Notes: generated by a model not told the origin, from the sequence alone. A DNA stretch of 32,905 nucleotides from Candidatus Woesebacteria bacterium GW2011_GWB1_38_8b (GCA_000993115.1 LBVN01000019.1:1-32905); one strand, 5' to 3'. Positions 17,795-31,185 are shown, counted from the stretch's first letter. Numbers and translations: made by a program.

Positions 17795-19288
17795 ATGATG
17801 AGAAAATTTATACTTAAACACGAACGAGGAGTTTATAGGTCCTTGGAAATTTTACCGGGGTTTGTTTCCTGGAATTTAATTTTATTTCCTTATTGGGGAA
17901 TTTTTATAATTCCAAATGTTGTCGCTTACTTTGTACTCGCTTACAATATTTATTGGTTTTATCAATCCTTCCAAATTGCAATTTCAGCAACCGTCTCACA
18001 TTTTCGGGTTCAATCGGCAATGATTTTTGATTGGGTGGGGGATTTAAAATCTTTCCCCGACTGGAAAAAAGTAAACCATTTAATACTAATTACTACCTAC
18101 AAAGAACCTCTTCACATACTTGAACGGACGCTGACAGCATTGGCTGACCAAACTCTTCCGAAAGATCAACTGCATATTGTTTTAGCAATGGAGAAAAAAG
18201 AACCAGAGGAGGATAGAAACGAAAAGATAAAAATATTAGAAAAAAAGTACGGCAAAATTTTTGCTGATTTTTTTATTACGGTTCACGAAATAGTCCCGGG
18301 TGAAATTCCGGGTAAATCTTCAAACGAAAGGTTTGCCGCAATTTGGGCGAAGAAAGAATTAATCGATAAGCGTAAAATGGATATTAATTATTTTACAGTA
18401 ACCTCCTGTGACGCTGACCATAAATTTCACCCTAACCATTTCGCAGCCCTTACTTATCTTTTTCTTGATAATCCAAAAAGATATTTGTGTTTCTGGCAGG
18501 CAGCAATTATGTTTTACAACAACATCTGGAAACTTCCCGCCCTTACCCGCGTACCAAATACTTTAGGGTCCATCTGGAATTTGTCTCAACTCCCCCGCAA
18601 AGATAAATTAATTAATACTGCAAATTATTCCCTGTCGCTTAAGCTTCTGGACGAAGTCGGTTATTGGGACGCCGATAAAATTCCCGAAGATTGGGGAATA
18701 TTTTTCAAATCTTATTACGCCAAAAACGGGGGTGTCGAAGTTGAACCAATCTATCTCCCTCTTTATGCAGACGCCGCTGAGGGACCGTCTTTTATTAAAA
18801 CTCTGAAAAATGAATATAATCAAAAGAAGCGCTGGGCATGGGGAGTTTCTGATGATCCGTGGATTATCCGCGACTTTTTTCTAAACGACAAAATTCCTTT
18901 CTGGGAAAAAACCATGAGGGTTTTGTTTTTAATCCAATCACATTTTCTTTGGCCGGTTCATTTTTTTGTTATCACAATCGGACTTACCCTTCCGTCAATT
19001 CTAAATCCCCGCTTTGCAAGGACAACCCTCGGCTACACAGTTCCCAAATTGTCCTCAGCGATTCTAACCATCGCATTGGTCTTTCTTCTTGTGATGCTTG
19101 TCCTTGATAAAATTTATAAACCCGCAAGACCGAAAGAATACCCCCTTTGGCGTGCCCTTTTAACACCGCTTGAATTTGTACTCATGCCAATTGCCGGATT
19201 TTTGTTTACCGCACTTCCGGGAATTGATGCACATACCCGCCTGATGCTTGGAAAATATATTCAGTATAAAGTTACTGAGAAGGTTTAA
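17795..19288 (+). CDS. Membrane glycosyltransferase, GT2-like
   Basis: LILITTYKEPLHILERTLTALADQTLPKDQLHIVLAMEKKE, TSCDADHKFHPNHFAAL, EDWGIFFKSYYAKNGG, NQKKRWAWGVSDDPWIIRDF; flanking TM helices. Confidence 0.82.
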   Translation: MMRKFILKHERGVYRSLEILPGFVSWNLILFPYWGIFIIPNVVAYFVLAYNIYWFYQSFQIAISATVSHFRVQSAMIFDWVGDLKSFPDWKKVNHLILITTYKEPLHILERTLTALADQTLPKDQLHIVLAMEKKEPEEDRNEKIKILEKKYGKIFADFFITVHEIVPGEIPGKSSNERFAAIWAKKELIDKRKMDINYFTVTSCDADHKFHPNHFAALTYLFLDNPKRYLCFWQAAIMFYNNIWKLPALTRVPNTLGSIWNLSQLPRKDKLINTANYSLSLKLLDEVGYWDADKIPEDWGIFFKSYYAKNGGVEVEPIYLPLYADAAEGPSFIKTLKNEYNQKKRWAWGVSDDPWIIRDFFLNDKIPFWEKTMRVLFLIQSHFLWPVHFFVITIGLTLPSILNPRFARTTLGYTVPKLSSAILTIALVFLLVMLVLDKIYKPARPKEYPLWRALLTPLEFVLMPIAGFLFTALPGIDAHTRLMLGKYIQYKVTEKV

Positions 19289-23104: not shown

Positions 23105-23881
23105 TTAATACTTGCTCATTCCGATTGCATTAAACCTAGATTCAAACCCTATTCTTTTATAAAACTCATTCGGATAATGTCCTTCTTCCGTTGCTAAGCA
23201 GTGTATATCGTTTCCGTTTTTTATTGATTCCTGAACACAAAATAAAGTCGCAGCTTTCCCAAAACCTTCGCCTCGTACTTTTTCTAAAGAACCTACGTTC
23301 GAAATATAACCAATGTTTTCAAAATTAGTCAGTGTAGAAACAGCAACTGGCTCTGAACCTTTAAATACTACAAAATACTGCAGCCTATTAGTTCTTTTGT
23401 ATTTAGACCACACTTTTCTTGCTACATTCAAGTAATCCCCCAATTCACCATAAGGGTTTTGCGGATCATCTTTCTTGTAACAAGCGTTAAAAGTGTCCAA
23501 AAATATTTCCAGATCCTTTTCGTTTTCTATTTGTTTTACAAAATCAAAATACTTGCCGTCGATTTTGTTGGTTTTCCAGAATTGCCACGCATCCTCGAAC
23601 GAAAATTTATAACCTAGTTTATCAAGGGATTTTTTAAGTGGAAACAAAATTTTCGAATTTTCAAAGTATATGGTTGGTTTTCTATCCAATTTATTAAAAG
23701 CATTTTCAATTAATTTAATTTGTTCTGAATCAAGAATAATATTCGTCAATGCGTTGTTCCAAATCGAAGAACTATCGCCCTCCGAATATGTTAATTGAGC
23801 AAATCCCAAATCGATTAACCTATCGGACATAATATCATTTTGGAGAGCTTGATATTTTTTTAAAAAATCAAAGTTTTTCAC
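23105..23881 (-). CDS. GNAT-family N-acetyltransferase (GTG start)
   Basis: GSEPVAVSTLTNFENIGYISNVGSLEKVRGEGFGKAATLFCVQES...YPNEFYKRIGFE. TAAAAT is 6 nt upstream of the GTG. Confidence 0.72.
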   Translation of the reverse strand: MKNFDFLKKYQALQNDIMSDRLIDLGFAQLTYSEGDSSSIWNNALTNIILDSEQIKLIENAFNKLDRKPTIYFENSKILFPLKKSLDKLGYKFSFEDAWQFWKTNKIDGKYFDFVKQIENEKDLEIFLDTFNACYKKDDPQNPYGELGDYLNVARKVWSKYKRTNRLQYFVVFKGSEPVAVSTLTNFENIGYISNVGSLEKVRGEGFGKAATLFCVQESIKNGNDIHCLATEEGHYPNEFYKRIGFESRFNAIGMSKY

Positions 23882-23926
23882 AAACCAATTTTATCACGAT
23901 CCTGAGTTTTATCGAAGGACTCTGAA

Positions 23927-23946
23927 GCTACTTTGAAGACAAATTA
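23927..23946 (-). repeat. Dispersed repeat copy R1
   Basis: + strand GCTACTTTGAAGACAAATTA. Confidence 0.95.
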
Positions 23947-23962
23947 AATTATACCGTAATAG

Positions 23963-24385
23963 TTATTCGCCTGAAACATTTAACAATAAATACTCTAAAT
24001 TTTCCTTCAGAAAATTAACCTCTTGTTGGGGGCCTATAAGAGAAAGCGCCTCCTCAATTGTATACCAACCGTACACCTCCTCTGCACCGTGGTGTTTGTA
24101 AGATTCACTTTTAAGCAAATAAAGGTGAATATCTTTTAAAACCTTTATCCCGTCCCTTTCAATACTAGGTCTAGTAACAATACCAAGTTTTTTAATAACA
24201 TGTAAATCAGTTAGTCCTGTTTCTTCCCGCACTTCTCTTATTGCCGCTTCTTCATGGCTTTCTCCTTCACAAACATGACCTTTTGGAAATGACAAACCAC
24301 CTTGTGGAAAAGTTATTAATAGAATTTTTATTTGTCCACCTTCGTTTTTAACTACAACCCCACCCGCAGATACAGCTTTTTTCAT
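23963..24385 (-). CDS. NUDIX hydrolase
   Basis: SFPKGHVCEGESHEEAAIREVREETGL NUDIX box. ATG 24385 (MKKAVSAGGVVV) preferred; TAAAAT is 7 nt upstream. Confidence 0.88.
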   Translation of the reverse strand: MKKAVSAGGVVVKNEGGQIKILLITFPQGGLSFPKGHVCEGESHEEAAIREVREETGLTDLHVIKKLGIVTRPSIERDGIKVLKDIHLYLLKSESYKHHGAEEVYGWYTIEEALSLIGPQQEVNFLKENLEYLLLNVSGE

Positions 24386-24422
24386 ATAATGGATTTTACT
24401 CTCAACCAACTTTAACAACAAG

Positions 24423-24986
24423 CTAACTGTAAATAACGACCCGTTTGTAATTTGGAAGAATTAAAAGAGGAATTTTTTCTTTATATTCCGAAAGTTCTTG
24501 GGTAATTTTGTAATCACCAGAAACATAATGGCAGAAAGTCTTAATGTTTAATATTCCCAATCCCTTCCCGATTTTTTGACTCATGTTTCCATAAAAATAC
24601 TTAGAGAGACAATTGGCCCCAGCCGATGAGCCACCAACAACTTTATTTTCCAATAACTTATCAAAATTATCGTATTTCGACAATTTTTCTACAAGTTTTT
24701 CCGTTGAGCCACCTCCTTCGAAAAATACAACATCAGCCCATTTAAGTTGTTTAATAAACTTGTCTTCATCCGCTAATTTGAAAACAATAGTTTTACCCGC
24801 GCAGTATTTTTTAAATAAAGCGGAGTGTCTTTGAAATTTGTCCAACACTCTATTCTCGTCACAGGAAAAACAATTAATCAGAAAGTTGATAGGCTTGTTT
24901 CTACCTGAAGTCATCTCTTTATAAAATCCGATATTGTCAGAGTTTTTATCCCCAAAATCACCTCCATGCAATACAAATTTAATCAT
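24423..24986 (-). CDS. Peptidase E-like (S51 / type 1 glutamine amidotransferase-like)
   Basis: VVFFEGGGSTEKLVEKL...VVGGSSAGANCLSKYFYGN. Confidence 0.75.
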   Translation of the reverse strand: MIKFVLHGGDFGDKNSDNIGFYKEMTSGRNKPINFLINCFSCDENRVLDKFQRHSALFKKYCAGKTIVFKLADEDKFIKQLKWADVVFFEGGGSTEKLVEKLSKYDNFDKLLENKVVGGSSAGANCLSKYFYGNMSQKIGKGLGILNIKTFCHYVSGDYKITQELSEYKEKIPLLILPNYKRVVIYS

Positions 24987-25014
24987 TGGGAAATTATAAC
25001 AGAAACCAAGACTG

Positions 25015-25034
25015 GCTACTTTGAAGACAAATTA
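25015..25034 (-). repeat. Dispersed repeat copy R2
   Basis: GCTACTTTGAAGACAAATTA; its TTA is the stop codon of the gene at 25032-25811. Confidence 0.95.
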
Positions 25035-25811
25035 TTTTATTTCAACTCTCTTTTTTGGTTGCCACCATGTGTCAAATTCCCTTGCTTTTTTAACTTCATC
25101 TAAGTCTAGTTCCTCATAAAGTATTTCCTTTCGATCAGTGCTAGCTTCTTTCAACACCCCTCTAATTGGGCTCACAATCAGTGATCTTCCATAGGAGTTG
25201 AACGATTTATTTAAATTACCTGACATTAAAACATATGCACGACTTGTAAAAGCACCGTAAACAAATAACGCCTTTACATATTCTTGAGTATTAATTTCTT
25301 TCCAGCCAATAGACCAAGTTGGTATACAAATTATTTCAGCCCCCAACGTGTTAAATTTGTCATACAAAAAGTGGGAATATTTATTAAAGCCATCTTTACA
25401 AATTAGCATCCCCAATTTGCCTATTTCGGTGTTTTTGATTTCCAAAGTCTCTCCCGAAACTATACCAATGTTTTCAACTTCAGGTTTGGCTGGATAAATT
25501 TTTCTATGCGACACAACTGATTTACCCTCAGGGGAAATAATATGACCCTGATTAAAAAATTTGCCCTTGTCTTTTGTATAAAAACTTGTCGAAAGAAATA
25601 TTTTATTTTTTTTCGCAATTTCAACCAATCTTGGCAAATAATTTACGTCTTTTTCTTTTAATTCTCCAACGTCTCCAACAGCGGTTTCAGGTGCAACGAC
25701 CAATTTTGCATTAGCCCATGTAGCTTGAGAAACCAACTCATCAAGTTTTTTAAAAGAAGCATCAGATTCTTCAGGAACCTCATATTGCAAAACCGCAACT
25801 TTTAGCTTCAT
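25032..25811 (-). CDS. Carbon-nitrogen hydrolase (nitrilase superfamily)
   Basis: AKLVVAPETAVGD, HRKIYPAKPEVENIGI, KLGMLICKDGFN, GAEIICIPTWSIG. Confidence 0.85.
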   Translation of the reverse strand: MKLKVAVLQYEVPEESDASFKKLDELVSQATWANAKLVVAPETAVGDVGELKEKDVNYLPRLVEIAKKNKIFLSTSFYTKDKGKFFNQGHIISPEGKSVVSHRKIYPAKPEVENIGIVSGETLEIKNTEIGKLGMLICKDGFNKYSHFLYDKFNTLGAEIICIPTWSIGWKEINTQEYVKALFVYGAFTSRAYVLMSGNLNKSFNSYGRSLIVSPIRGVLKEASTDRKEILYEELDLDEVKKAREFDTWWQPKKRVEIK

Positions 25812-25831
25812 ATCCTTAATTCTACTCTGAA

Positions 25832-25851
25832 GCTACTTTGAAGACAAATTA
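25832..25851 (-). repeat. Dispersed repeat copy R3
   Basis: GCTACTTTGAAGACAAATTA; contains the stop codon of the gene at 25849-26394. Confidence 0.95.
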
Positions 25852-26394
25852 TTCAATTGTGTAATCCCATCCTGGTTGCCAAGCATGCTTTTTTCTCCAA
25901 TCTTCCGCAAATGCCTGCTCCCAAGTTTTTCCTCCTAGTAAAACATCCAGTGCAAGTTGTGGTGCTTTATGGGCAACTATAGCTACATATTTACCTTCAT
26001 AATTTTGCCTTAGAAAACCCAAGAAATCAGCAATTCTTGCCTTTACGTCTTCATAGCTTTCACCGTTAGGAAACTTGTTTGTTACATTTTTTTCCTGAAG
26101 AGGCTCTACAATTTCGGATGGCTTTCCGTTAAGATCTCCATAATTGCACTCGCGAAGTCTTGAGTCTTCTACAATTTTTACACTGTCTCCAAAAGTAAGT
26201 TTAGCCGAATCAACCGCTCTTTTTAGGTCAGAACAAAACACCACATCAAATTTTTTATCACGAATTTGTTGTATAAGTTCAAGAGACTGTTTCTTTCCCA
26301 GATCAGAAAGTCCGACATCTTTCCATCCTGAAGAGATTTCCTCTTCGTTATCGGTTGTAGTCCCATGGACAAAATAGGTAATTTCTACTGACAT
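25849..26394 (-). CDS. Histidine phosphatase family protein
   Basis: ITYFVHGTTTDNEEEISSGWKDVGLSDLGKKQSLEL, VFCSDLKRAVDSAKL, ECNYGDLNGKP, VAIVAHKAPQL. Confidence 0.82.
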   Translation of the reverse strand: MSVEITYFVHGTTTDNEEEISSGWKDVGLSDLGKKQSLELIQQIRDKKFDVVFCSDLKRAVDSAKLTFGDSVKIVEDSRLRECNYGDLNGKPSEIVEPLQEKNVTNKFPNGESYEDVKARIADFLGFLRQNYEGKYVAIVAHKAPQLALDVLLGGKTWEQAFAEDWRKKHAWQPGWDYTIE

Positions 26395-26417
26395 CGATTG
26401 TATTCTACTGTCTTTTC

Positions 26418-26434
26418 ACTTTGAAGACAAATTA
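26418..26434 (-). repeat. Dispersed repeat copy R4 (17-nt partial)
   Basis: ACTTTGAAGACAAATTA; contains the stop codon of the toxin gene at 26432-26695. Confidence 0.9.
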
Positions 26435-26695
26435 TTTATAAAGTTTGCTGTGTGTGCCCAATAAATCAAAATAAACAATTTCTCCACTTTTTAATTCTCT
26501 AAAAACAGCTCTCCAATCTCCTGTTATGTTTATGCTTCTAAATCCTTTATATTTTCCTGTCAATGCATGGTTGTTAAGCGATGGATAAAATTTATCAACT
26601 AATAACTGCTCAAGTCTTGAATCAAAAGCTTTTCTTATTTTGAAGGGAGCTTTATCATAATTTTTCCCAAATTTCTTAGAAAATTTAACTTTCAT
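26432..26695 (-). CDS. RelE/YafQ-like toxin
   Basis: MKVKFSKKFGKNYDKAPFKIRKAFDSRLEQLL...HALTGKYKGFRSINITGDWRAVFRELKSGEIVYFDLLGTHSKLYK. Confidence 0.85.
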   Translation of the reverse strand: MKVKFSKKFGKNYDKAPFKIRKAFDSRLEQLLVDKFYPSLNNHALTGKYKGFRSINITGDWRAVFRELKSGEIVYFDLLGTHSKLYK

Positions 26696-26986
26696 TTAAA
26701 TACCTTCTCTTGGGATTATTAAGCCAATCAATCGCATCTTTAACGTTATCAAAGGAAGGGGAAACTCTACCTGCTTTTCTGTCCTCTTCAGATTCCTTAA
26801 GAGCCTGAATCATATATTCACTGGGATTTCTTCAGTCAAAGAAAAGTGAATAGTTTTAGTTTTAATCAACTGATTAAGATAGCCATTGATAAGTGAACTC
26901 AAGCTGAAACCCAAATCAGAAGCAATTTTCTGCGCCTGGCTTTTTACTTTCGCATTGGTTTTGATATTTATAACCGCTGTATTCAT
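26685..26986 (-). pseudogene. RelB/DinJ-like antitoxin with single-nucleotide frameshift (not in the ORF track)
   Basis: MNTAVINIKTNAKVKSQAQKIASDLGFSLSSLINGYLNQLIKTKTIHFSLTEEIP | SEYMIQALKESEEDRKAGRVSPSFDNVKDAIDWLNNPKRRYLNES*; frame changes near 26820; end overlaps the toxin ATG. Confidence 0.85.
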
Positions 26987-27022
26987 ATATACTTATTATA
27001 TACGTAGTATATACCGTGTCAA
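26986..27022 (-). promoter_or_regulatory. TA module 2 promoter/operator
   Basis: Minus-strand TTGACA (27017-27022), 16-nt spacer, TATAAT (26995-27000), 8 nt to the ATG at 26986. Inverted repeat TATATACT (26986-26993) / AGTATATA (27006-27013). Confidence 0.75.
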
Positions 27023-27042
27023 TAGATATTAGGAAACCTTAA

Positions 27043-27062
27043 GCTACTTTGAAGACAAATTA
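27043..27062 (-). repeat. Dispersed repeat copy R5
   Basis: GCTACTTTGAAGACAAATTA; contains the stop codon of the gene at 27060-27479. Confidence 0.95.
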
Positions 27063-27479
27063 TTCTAAAGACTCCTCAAACTTTTTATGAGGCGAGTCCG
27101 GCATGGTCTGAACTATTTCTAACTTATTTCCTTCAGGATCAAAAAGCCAAACATATTTATTATGATCTCTTGTGTCTAGAATATCGGAATCAAAAACCAC
27201 GCCTCTTTTTTCTGCATCAATTTTTAATTTCGCTAAATCGTCAACAGTAAAACAAACATGTCTTACTCCCAAACTTTTTTGGTCATCAAAAGCAGGTCTG
27301 TCTTCACCTCCTAAACAGATCTCAAGATATTGTCCCTCTGAAATATGAAGATAAACTATTCGCAAGCTACCGTCATCATTGTTTATCCTAAAAGCTTCCT
27401 GCAACCCAAGTCCTTTGCAATAGAAATCCAAAATATTTCCTATATCTTTAACCCTAATTGCTACATGTCCAAATTTCAT
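27060..27479 (-). CDS. VOC/glyoxalase-like protein
   Basis: KFGHVAIRVKDIGNILDFYCKGLGLQEAFRI...VRHVCFTVDDLAKL...VWLFDPEGNKLEIVQ. Confidence 0.88.
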   Translation of the reverse strand: MKFGHVAIRVKDIGNILDFYCKGLGLQEAFRINNDDGSLRIVYLHISEGQYLEICLGGEDRPAFDDQKSLGVRHVCFTVDDLAKLKIDAEKRGVVFDSDILDTRDHNKYVWLFDPEGNKLEIVQTMPDSPHKKFEESLE

Positions 27480-27715
27480 ATTATGTTTTTCAGTCTTTTA
27501 TACTCATCCAGAACCTTTTCTGCCCGTAACAAATCGTCTTTATTATCTTTAAATATAATACTACGGATATCTAAAGACATCTTGTCTCCTAGTTTTTCCT
27601 TAGCTTTTTTAAAAAACGAAAGTCCTATTTCTTTCGATCCTTTTGCCAGATAAAACGCCGCACGATAAAGATCGACTATCCCATCTGAAATTAAGTCATG
27701 TTTATTCAGGACCAT
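27476..27715 (-). CDS. Small hypothetical protein
   Basis: 79 aa; overlaps both neighbouring CDSs in an operon-like arrangement. Confidence 0.6.
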   Translation of the reverse strand: MVLNKHDLISDGIVDLYRAAFYLAKGSKEIGLSFFKKAKEKLGDKMSLDIRSIIFKDNKDDLLRAEKVLDEYKRLKNII

Positions 27716-28044
27716 AATGCATTAAAATAGTCTTTAACAATTTTTATAAATTTCTCACGAATACCTTGATCTAAAATTTCCAAGTTATCATTTTTTAAAT
27801 TAGGTCTTATGTTTAAAACCGCAGTCGTATCAACCAACTTATCTAATAAATTAATTCCCCCACCCCAAATATCATTTTGTCTGCTTCCTTTTTCTAAAAG
27901 AATTTTCTCACCGTCCGCATGCAAAATACATCCCACCATCACCCAACCTTTCTCAACATCAATCGTCAACTTTACATAATCACCATATTCATTTTGAAAA
28001 CCCGATATTTCCTTTTTAGATAATTTCCTATCAACGAAATCCAT
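27706..28044 (-). CDS. DUF5674-like protein
   Basis: YVKLTIDVEKGWVMVGCILHADGEKILLEKGSRQNDIWGGGINLL...NIRPNLKNDNLEI. Confidence 0.6.
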   Translation of the reverse strand: MDFVDRKLSKKEISGFQNEYGDYVKLTIDVEKGWVMVGCILHADGEKILLEKGSRQNDIWGGGINLLDKLVDTTAVLNIRPNLKNDNLEILDQGIREKFIKIVKDYFNALWS

Positions 28045-29844: not shown

Positions 29845-31185
29845 ATGGAGACTGTATTTAATCAAAGCCTTTGGGGGGATGAAGGGTTTTCTGCGATTCT
29901 TTCGATGAAACCTCTCCCTGATATTATAAAAATAATTATCCGGGACACAAGTCCTCCACTTTGGAACATCTGTGAATACCTGGTTTTTAAAATCTTCGGA
30001 ACAAATGAAGTTTACATCCGAGGCCTCGCATTTTTATTCTTTCTGGGAACCGTATTTTTCACTTATAAAATAGCAGCTCATTTATTTAATAAAAAAACCG
30101 CAGTTTTAGCTTCGCTTTTGATATTTCTGAATCCTTTTTTCTTTATTTACGCTTTCGAGGGTCGGATGTATTCGATAATGAGTTTTGGCGTTGCCGGGTC
30201 AATGTATTTTTTCCTTAGGCGGCGATGGAAGCTTTATGTCTTTTTTACACTTTGGGCTCTCTATTCACACCATTTTGCAATGTTTATTCTTTTCGTTCAG
30301 GGAATTTGGTTTCTACATGAATTCTTTTTCGGAGAAAAATTAATTGCCAAGAAAATGTTTAAGTATTTTGTAATTGTAGGACTGGGGTATTTACCTTGGG
30401 TATATCCTCTATATTTGCAGATTTCCATGGTTAAGGGAGGGTTTTGGCTGGGAAAACCAAATTCGGGAGACTTAATACATTTAATTTTTGATTATCTTGC
30501 GGAAGGAATAAAATCAAACATCACCATACCGCTTATCGATATCCCGATTTACAAACTAGCGCTTATTTTTACATTTGTAACACTTCTTCTTCGCAACTGG
30601 ATGAAAAACATCAAAAATACGCTTTTTTTCTTAAGCTGGTTTTTGATACCAATTATCGTTACATACCTAATATCCCAAAAATTCACATCGGTTTTTTATA
30701 ACCGCTATTTACTCTACACAATCCCAGCCGCAATGCTTCTTCTGGCAACTTGCAAAAGAGGAGTTGCTTCATACATCACAATTTTTTTGGTTTTGATTAC
30801 ATTTTCCATAATTGATTACAACTATTTCATTCATCCGGCTAAACTTCCTTTCCGTGAGTATTCCGAATATGTAAAAAGTGTTTCCGAAAAAAGAGATTAT
30901 TTAATCAACTGGAATTCAAACGGCTCGCATCATCTTTGGGAAACAAAATACTACAATATTCCCGCCCCTATTTATTCTTCCGGTGGGGGAGATTTGCCTT
31001 ACTTTGTCGGAACCGCTTTAATGGATAAAAATGATGTCGTACGCGATATACCAGAAGACGCAAATACCGTTGGTGTAGTCACCAGCGGAAATACGGAAGA
31101 GGTCAAACTCCCCAATTTTATCCAAAATGAAGTTAAGGAATTTAATGGGCTTAAATATATACTATTAGGGAGGAATGAAAAATAA
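29845..31185 (+). CDS. GT39-like membrane glycosyltransferase
   Basis: SLWGDEGFSAILSMKPL, RDTSPPLW, YIRGLAFLFFLGTVFFTYKIAAHLFNKKTAVLASLLIFLNPFFFIYAFEGRMYS. Confidence 0.82.
   Translation: METVFNQSLWGDEGFSAILSMKPLPDIIKIIIRDTSPPLWNICEYLVFKIFGTNEVYIRGLAFLFFLGTVFFTYKIAAHLFNKKTAVLASLLIFLNPFFFIYAFEGRMYSIMSFGVAGSMYFFLRRRWKLYVFFTLWALYSHHFAMFILFVQGIWFLHEFFFGEKLIAKKMFKYFVIVGLGYLPWVYPLYLQISMVKGGFWLGKPNSGDLIHLIFDYLAEGIKSNITIPLIDIPIYKLALIFTFVTLLLRNWMKNIKNTLFFLSWFLIPIIVTYLISQKFTSVFYNRYLLYTIPAAMLLLATCKRGVASYITIFLVLITFSIIDYNYFIHPAKLPFREYSEYVKSVSEKRDYLINWNSNGSHHLWETKYYNIPAPIYSSGGGDLPYFVGTALMDKNDVVRDIPEDANTVGVVTSGNTEEVKLPNFIQNEVKEFNGLKYILLGRNEK

Follow-up and report, generated by a model that had tools for sequence, protein, structure and literature searches.

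A short, collinear palindromic site bounding apparently shuffled gene units in one family of Patescibacteria, and its possible role in cassette recombination

The attC sites of integrons carry the cores RYYYAAC and GTTRRRY and measure 57-141 bp (PMC3053210), and a cluster of attC sites without an integron integrase is termed a CALIN (PMC9668308). In Acinetobacter plasmids, small gene modules lie between pdif sites of about 28 bp, which alternate in orientation, with C and D modules (PMC13141974). In T4-type phages, the elements called PeSLs, each an intergenic stem-loop and promoter, lie between shuffled genes and are said to mediate gene shuffling (cited in PMC4503421), with no dedicated recombinase known. 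The genomes of Patescibacteria are very small, and the uptake and reordering of genes in these organisms are poorly known. Described here are arrays of short, site-bounded gene units from this group; a literature search of partial coverage found no paper describing such arrays in Patescibacteria.

The window, a stretch of 32,905 nucleotides from Candidatus Woesebacteria bacterium GW2011_GWB1_38_8b, holds five copies of a short repeat between positions 23927 and 27062, all on the same strand. The sequence GCTACTTTGAAGACAAATTA is exact at 23927, 25015, 25832 and 27043 (R1, R2, R3 and R5), while the fourth copy along the window (R4, 26415-26434) has three mismatches, leaving 17 identical nucleotides from 26418. 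No copies are expected in the window by chance (dinucleotide shuffles), and the organism's own genome (903,868 bases, 85.6% complete) contains no further copy at three or fewer mismatches outside the window array. On the coding strand the repeat reads TAATTTGTCTTCAAAGTAGC, and in four of the five copies (R2-R5) the TAA at its edge doubles as the stop codon of the gene upstream; R1 starts about 16 nt past the stop of a NUDIX gene. An earlier note, made from the sequence alone, had claimed five same-orientation copies with a partial R4, and a leading TAA serving as stop codon in R2-R5. Both claims held; the note had placed R1 about 20 nt past the NUDIX stop.

Read along the minus strand, which carries all of the genes and sites listed here, the series opens with a small gene and a DUF5674 gene (27476-28044) that have no clear upstream site in the window; the same two genes form a site-bounded unit in the relatives G049, G051 and G003. 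The VOC/glyoxalase gene (27060-27479) takes its stop codon from R5 (27043-27062), the 3' end of the VOC unit, and in Woesebacteria RBG_16_42_24 (L025) a homologue with 75% identity also ends at a site. The R5-R4 unit (26432-26986) pairs a RelB-like antitoxin gene (26810-26986) with a YafQ-type toxin gene (26432-26695) whose stop is the TAA of R4, a site with a degenerate right arm; the same pair occurs in the G002 array. Next come a histidine phosphatase unit (25849-26394), with homologues in the G051 and L025 arrays, which has R3 (25832-25851) at its 3' end, and a carbon-nitrogen hydrolase (nitrilase) unit (25032-25811), which has R2 (25015-25034); at R3, the sequence TTGTCT-17 nt-TAGAAT reads into the nitrilase gene. 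The R2-R1 unit (23963-24986) consists of a peptidase S51 gene (24423-24986), a homologue of which starts at a site in a G019 array, and the NUDIX gene (23963-24421), followed by R1 (23927-23946). After R1 lies the array's last gene, GNAT-like (23105-23881), with no site behind it. Pfam matches confirm the gene classes named in the earlier note, the GNAT match being weak, and add the peptidase S51 gene, which had gone unnamed.

Two other repeated sequences were observed. A second, REP-like motif, TCCTTCGRTAAAACTCAGGA, lies directly after the site GGAG at four sites in three arrays, often with a -10 element behind it (window 23900-23919, its only place there; L034 sites 9161 and 10932; L025 site 3706). 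Elsewhere in the window, a 79-nt direct repeat (1586-1664 and 2728-2806, 80% identical) is the 3' end of a gene ending at 1665, duplicated past a toxin-antitoxin-like pair (2195-2719).

The window array sits in a 10.6-kb island between two conserved plus-strand genes, one mannosyltransferase-like (29845-31185) and the other encoding a glycosyltransferase (17795-19288). These edge genes are 10.6-26.5 kb apart in G000, G049, G050 and G051, and 5-44 bp apart in the array-free G007, G008, G014, G031 and G038, which lack the island at the orthologous place. In six genera the array is found on the same side of the mannosyltransferase-like gene and in the same orientation relative to it. Intermediate genomes such as G013 and G015 carry accessory genes at the island locus and no sites, and the locus is therefore also a hotspot for gene movement not marked by sites. 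Some array genes likewise occur in hotspots without sites (for example k25 and k36 in G015), cases that may reflect either other routes of gene movement or decay of the sites. Further site-bearing loci include a second one in G001, G050 and G051, others in G002/G003 and two more in G019; the sites are limited to accessory islands and are not scattered.

The same site is present in 8 of 51 family relatives and in RBG_16_42_24. A scan of 384 genomes of the class, using a model built from 43 sites, found arrays within one family only (G000, G001, G002, G003, G016, G049, G050 and G051); G019 was picked up in other searches. The conservation of the site is partly circular, because the model was made from like sequences. 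Most relatives have a cleaner palindrome, TAATTTG-TCTT-CAAATTA-GCT, and in the consensus WATTTG-TCTT-CAAATTAGCTYCGGAG a palindrome of 7-4-7 layout is continued by a conserved right flank. Other genomes of the family carry CTAATTTGAAGACAAATTA, one mismatch away from the window repeat, with six copies in 9.5 kb of G050. The right arm in the window is CAAAGTA as against CAAATTA in relatives, a T to G change that spoils the palindrome and is found in all four strong window copies and in two of five RBG_16_42_24 sites, one of which likewise follows the VOC gene. The statement in the earlier note that there is no long imperfect palindrome needs correction: the repeat belongs to a palindrome, which is hidden in the window because one arm carries a mismatch.

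Some sites of G051, G019 and G001 have a long form, TAATTTGTCCCAGGGACGTTCGACGTCCTTCAAATTAGC, a nested palindrome that keeps the outer arms and right flank of the short form and adds an inner palindrome of about 20 nt, giving a length of 37-39 nt rather than 20-22 nt. Homologous genes can have the long site in one genome and the short site in another, as with the histidine phosphatase (G051, G000) and the DUF5674 pair (G051, G049). The short-form stem has a folding energy of about -4 kcal/mol (DNA energies) and no T tract, and base-pair covariation of the palindrome was not above that of shuffles. Two sites from one genome resemble each other more than two from different genomes do (permutation p 0.006).

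Searches for the site in other settings gave little. Rfam has no family matching in the window, L027, L117 or L029, and no site was found in plasmid and phage collections; viral contigs gave one match to the window form, which is the chance level, and none to the consensus or long form. Exact matches in Lactococcus and Pseudobutyrivibrio in the genome collection were set aside as single occurrences at about chance level. Lone weak matches outside the family lie mostly within genes. In G286, of another family, two near-identical single sites (L121 and L122) read CTCCGAAAAATTTGTCTTCAAATTTGYTTGGAG, a longer inverted repeat, and lie outside any array.

The sample analysed comprises 69 sites in 14 arrays. 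All 60 of the scored short-form sites are collinear within their own array (chance about 1e-14). The 55 site-to-site units have a median length of 726 bp; 47 of them contain one gene (30 units) or two (17 units), and 33 of the 113 genes in these units point against the site. In two-gene units the pairing is kept. One gene of the G049 array (L032:9318-9848) matches PADLOC candidate HEC-09 / NYN nuclease models.

Homologous units return in different arrays, and in blastn comparisons between arrays their DNA similarity breaks off at the sites. Between the window and G050, the nitrilase unit is 76% identical over its whole length, site to site, with the alignment running from -1/-1 to +17/+17 around both sites, and a two-gene unit shared by G049 and G050 aligns from -1/-1 to +22/+22. 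Nineteen ends of cross-array alignments coincided with a site in each of the two arrays, whereas 2000 randomisations of site positions gave a mean of 0.07 and never more than 2. Not one of 43 shared-unit comparisons revealed a neighbouring unit in common; the core genes flanking the island, unlike the units, hold their order. Neither the endpoint test nor the neighbour test is circular, because the sites were found from sequence alone. The identity of the sites, their collinearity, the unit boundaries, the homologous units with differing neighbours and the presence or absence of the island are shown by these data, and it is very probable that whole site-bounded units have been shuffled between genomes. 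All comparisons are between genera and mostly involve MAGs, so that exact excision at the level of strains was not seen. The earlier note would have been refuted had repeat-bounded units failed to vary among relatives; they do vary, with differing neighbours, and its alternative of intergenic spacer amplification is not supported.

The sites also carry a promoter-like signal. The motif TANNNT is enriched at a spacing of 17 nt from TTGTCT (12 of 55 sites, with six or fewer at any other offset), and when 16-18 nt is allowed, a -10 element is present at 16 of the 40 sites that precede a co-directional gene and at 0 of the 15 that precede a convergent one (Fisher p 0.0025). The arm AAATTAGCT is conserved alike in the two contexts (8.38 and 8.40 of 9). 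The -10 element therefore comes with the cassette that follows, while the arm is kept for something beyond transcription. Formation of a functional promoter at the junctions is an inference.

On balance, and by a modest margin, we favor the view that this repeat serves a mobile gene-cassette family, found in one family of Patescibacteria, as its recombination site; neither recombination nor a circular intermediate has been observed. Site-specific recombination is likewise the better-supported cause of the unit shuffling, though only moderately so: it is inferred, and the crossover position has not been mapped. The earlier note, in proposing a recombination or insertion target repeat in a cassette-like array, is supported and was largely right. 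In the favored model, a cassette would consist of a gene or gene pair with the palindromic site at its 3' end, the long form of the site having an inner stem placed between unchanged outer arms. Cassettes would be joined head to tail, their sites all pointing one way, within accessory islands that occupy a few hotspots of the chromosome, and recombination between sites would lead to the gain, loss and reordering of whole cassettes. The TTGTCT of the site may act as a -35 element, paired with the -10 element of the next co-directional cassette.

Integron arrays and CALINs share with these arrays the tandem units of one or two genes, the palindromic site at the 3' end, collinear sites, within-genome site likeness, and shuffled content at fixed chromosomal loci, with toxin-antitoxin and other accessory cargo. 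The arrays also satisfy the criterion of two or more collinear sites spaced by less than 4 kb, each following a gene. However, the arms TAATTTG / CAAATTA are not attC cores, as the earlier note had recognized, and the palindrome is too short; for lack of attC cores and attC length the array is not filed as a CALIN. Unlike integron cassettes, those described here often bear a -10 element that may pair with the TTGTCT of the preceding site. By its anatomy the array behaves as would an integron cassette array that has lost its integrase or never had one, yet on attC cores, site length and integrase it falls short of the integron/CALIN class. With pdif modules the arrays share small gene modules between short sites, and the short form allows a reading as two arms flanking a 6-bp GTCTTC center, one of them better conserved, but the sites show no alternation of orientation. 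Against a Xer/dif site, the arms are unlike the dif arms TTATGTTAAAT, and the long form alters the arm spacing, a change not expected of a double-strand Xer site. Constant outer arms with a changeable interior may instead resemble folded attC, although this too is inferred.

The acting enzyme has not been identified. No recombinase gene, integrase included, lies in or next to any array, in agreement with the earlier note, which had seen no integrase. The favored model would call for a recombinase acting in trans, probably a tyrosine recombinase, there being at least one Xer-like protein in every genome. Most family genomes have a XerA/D-like protein (about 320 aa) and a second Xer-like protein (about 290-305 aa), with arrays or without; the tyrosine recombinases of the window's own genome are 324 and 300 aa long. 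A third, XerA/IntI-like type of about 270 aa is found in 4 of 9 array-bearing genomes versus 1-2 of 43 others (Fisher p 0.002-0.006), an association picked after seeing the data. As a general explanation this type was rejected, being absent from five of the nine array-bearing genomes and, in four cases, located beside trmD without sites. The genes directly before trmD are on L229, L230, L231 and L234 (in G016, G049, G003 and G005).

Other candidates also failed. Some array-bearing genomes lack serine recombinases and some lack Y1 transposases (for Y1, G002 and G003 have no match), so neither class can account for every array. The dif-like pattern ATAA-N6-TTATGTNAA gave matches at chance level, and a site-like stretch behind the Xer gene of G000 was dropped for want of conservation in relatives. 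In several genomes, array-bearing or not, the XerA/D-like gene has a conserved stretch, (G)TCGCACAATNTTGACA, ahead of it (L065, L067, L069, L070 and L074).

The strongest rival, still unlikely, is a PeSL-like process in which regulatory spacers (a stem-loop after one gene, -35 and -10 elements before the next) serve as short hubs of homology for homologous or illegitimate recombination, with no dedicated recombinase. In its favor are the lack of a linked recombinase, the TANNNT spacing before co-directional genes only, and a stretch of 66 bp around R1 that is 94% identical to a RBG_16_42_24 site, promoter included. On the other hand, 15 of 55 sites precede a gene pointing back, where a promoter is useless, yet their arms are equally conserved, and the conserved right arm falls in the promoter spacer, where no sequence constraint is expected. 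A length of about 25 bp is also short for homologous recombination, and the stem is not a good terminator because it has no T tract. The arrays differ from PeSLs, finally, in lying on a bacterial chromosome.

Very unlikely is a highly divergent integron, in which the sites would be the reduced attC of a CALIN served by a true IntI from elsewhere; catalysis by IntI on these sites is hypothetical. The layout, 3'-end sites, collinearity, within-genome likeness and nested palindrome do fit CALIN anatomy (PMC9668308). In addition, a 276-aa XerA/IntI-like recombinase of G003 (L232:9020-9850, G003:C13) has V. cholerae IntI4 as its best PDB match, and its gene adjoins genes that flank loci with sites in G001, G050 and G051. 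Against this rival stand the absence of RYYYAAC/GTTRRRY cores, a site of only about 20-40 nt, the lack of intI or attI beside any array, the incomplete distribution of the IntI/XerA-like type, and the failure of any protein in the genomes to reach the NCBIfam cut-off for integron integrase (TIGR02249; best 221.8 bits, cut-off 265). The idea of a MITE or REP-like hairpin, spread by Y1 transposases and inserted after genes without relation to gene movement, is suggested by the short multicopy palindrome and the Y1-type transposases of several of the genomes, but is disfavored as very improbable by the confinement of the sites to accessory islands, the invariable orientation with no scattered insertions in either direction, the homology ending at sites with differing neighbors (unexpected from insertion into a fixed gene order), and the arrays in two genomes with no Y1 match.

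A bolder version of the cassette model is that this is an integron-independent system restricted to one Patescibacteria family, with an optional inner stem and fixed outer arms, in which a housekeeping or XerA/IntI-like tyrosine recombinase would act in trans and a junction promoter would form from the -35 of the site and the -10 of the cassette; taken together, these elements are rather less probable than the cassette model itself, and we put the whole slightly below an even chance. If the cassette interpretation is true, Patescibacteria would have a modular gene-capture locus that is comparable to the integron and invisible to searches based on attC or integrase. It would raise a direct experimental question, namely which recombinase uses these sites. 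Cassette arrays may then have arisen repeatedly in evolution, or taken on forms much simpler than the attC sites known so far.
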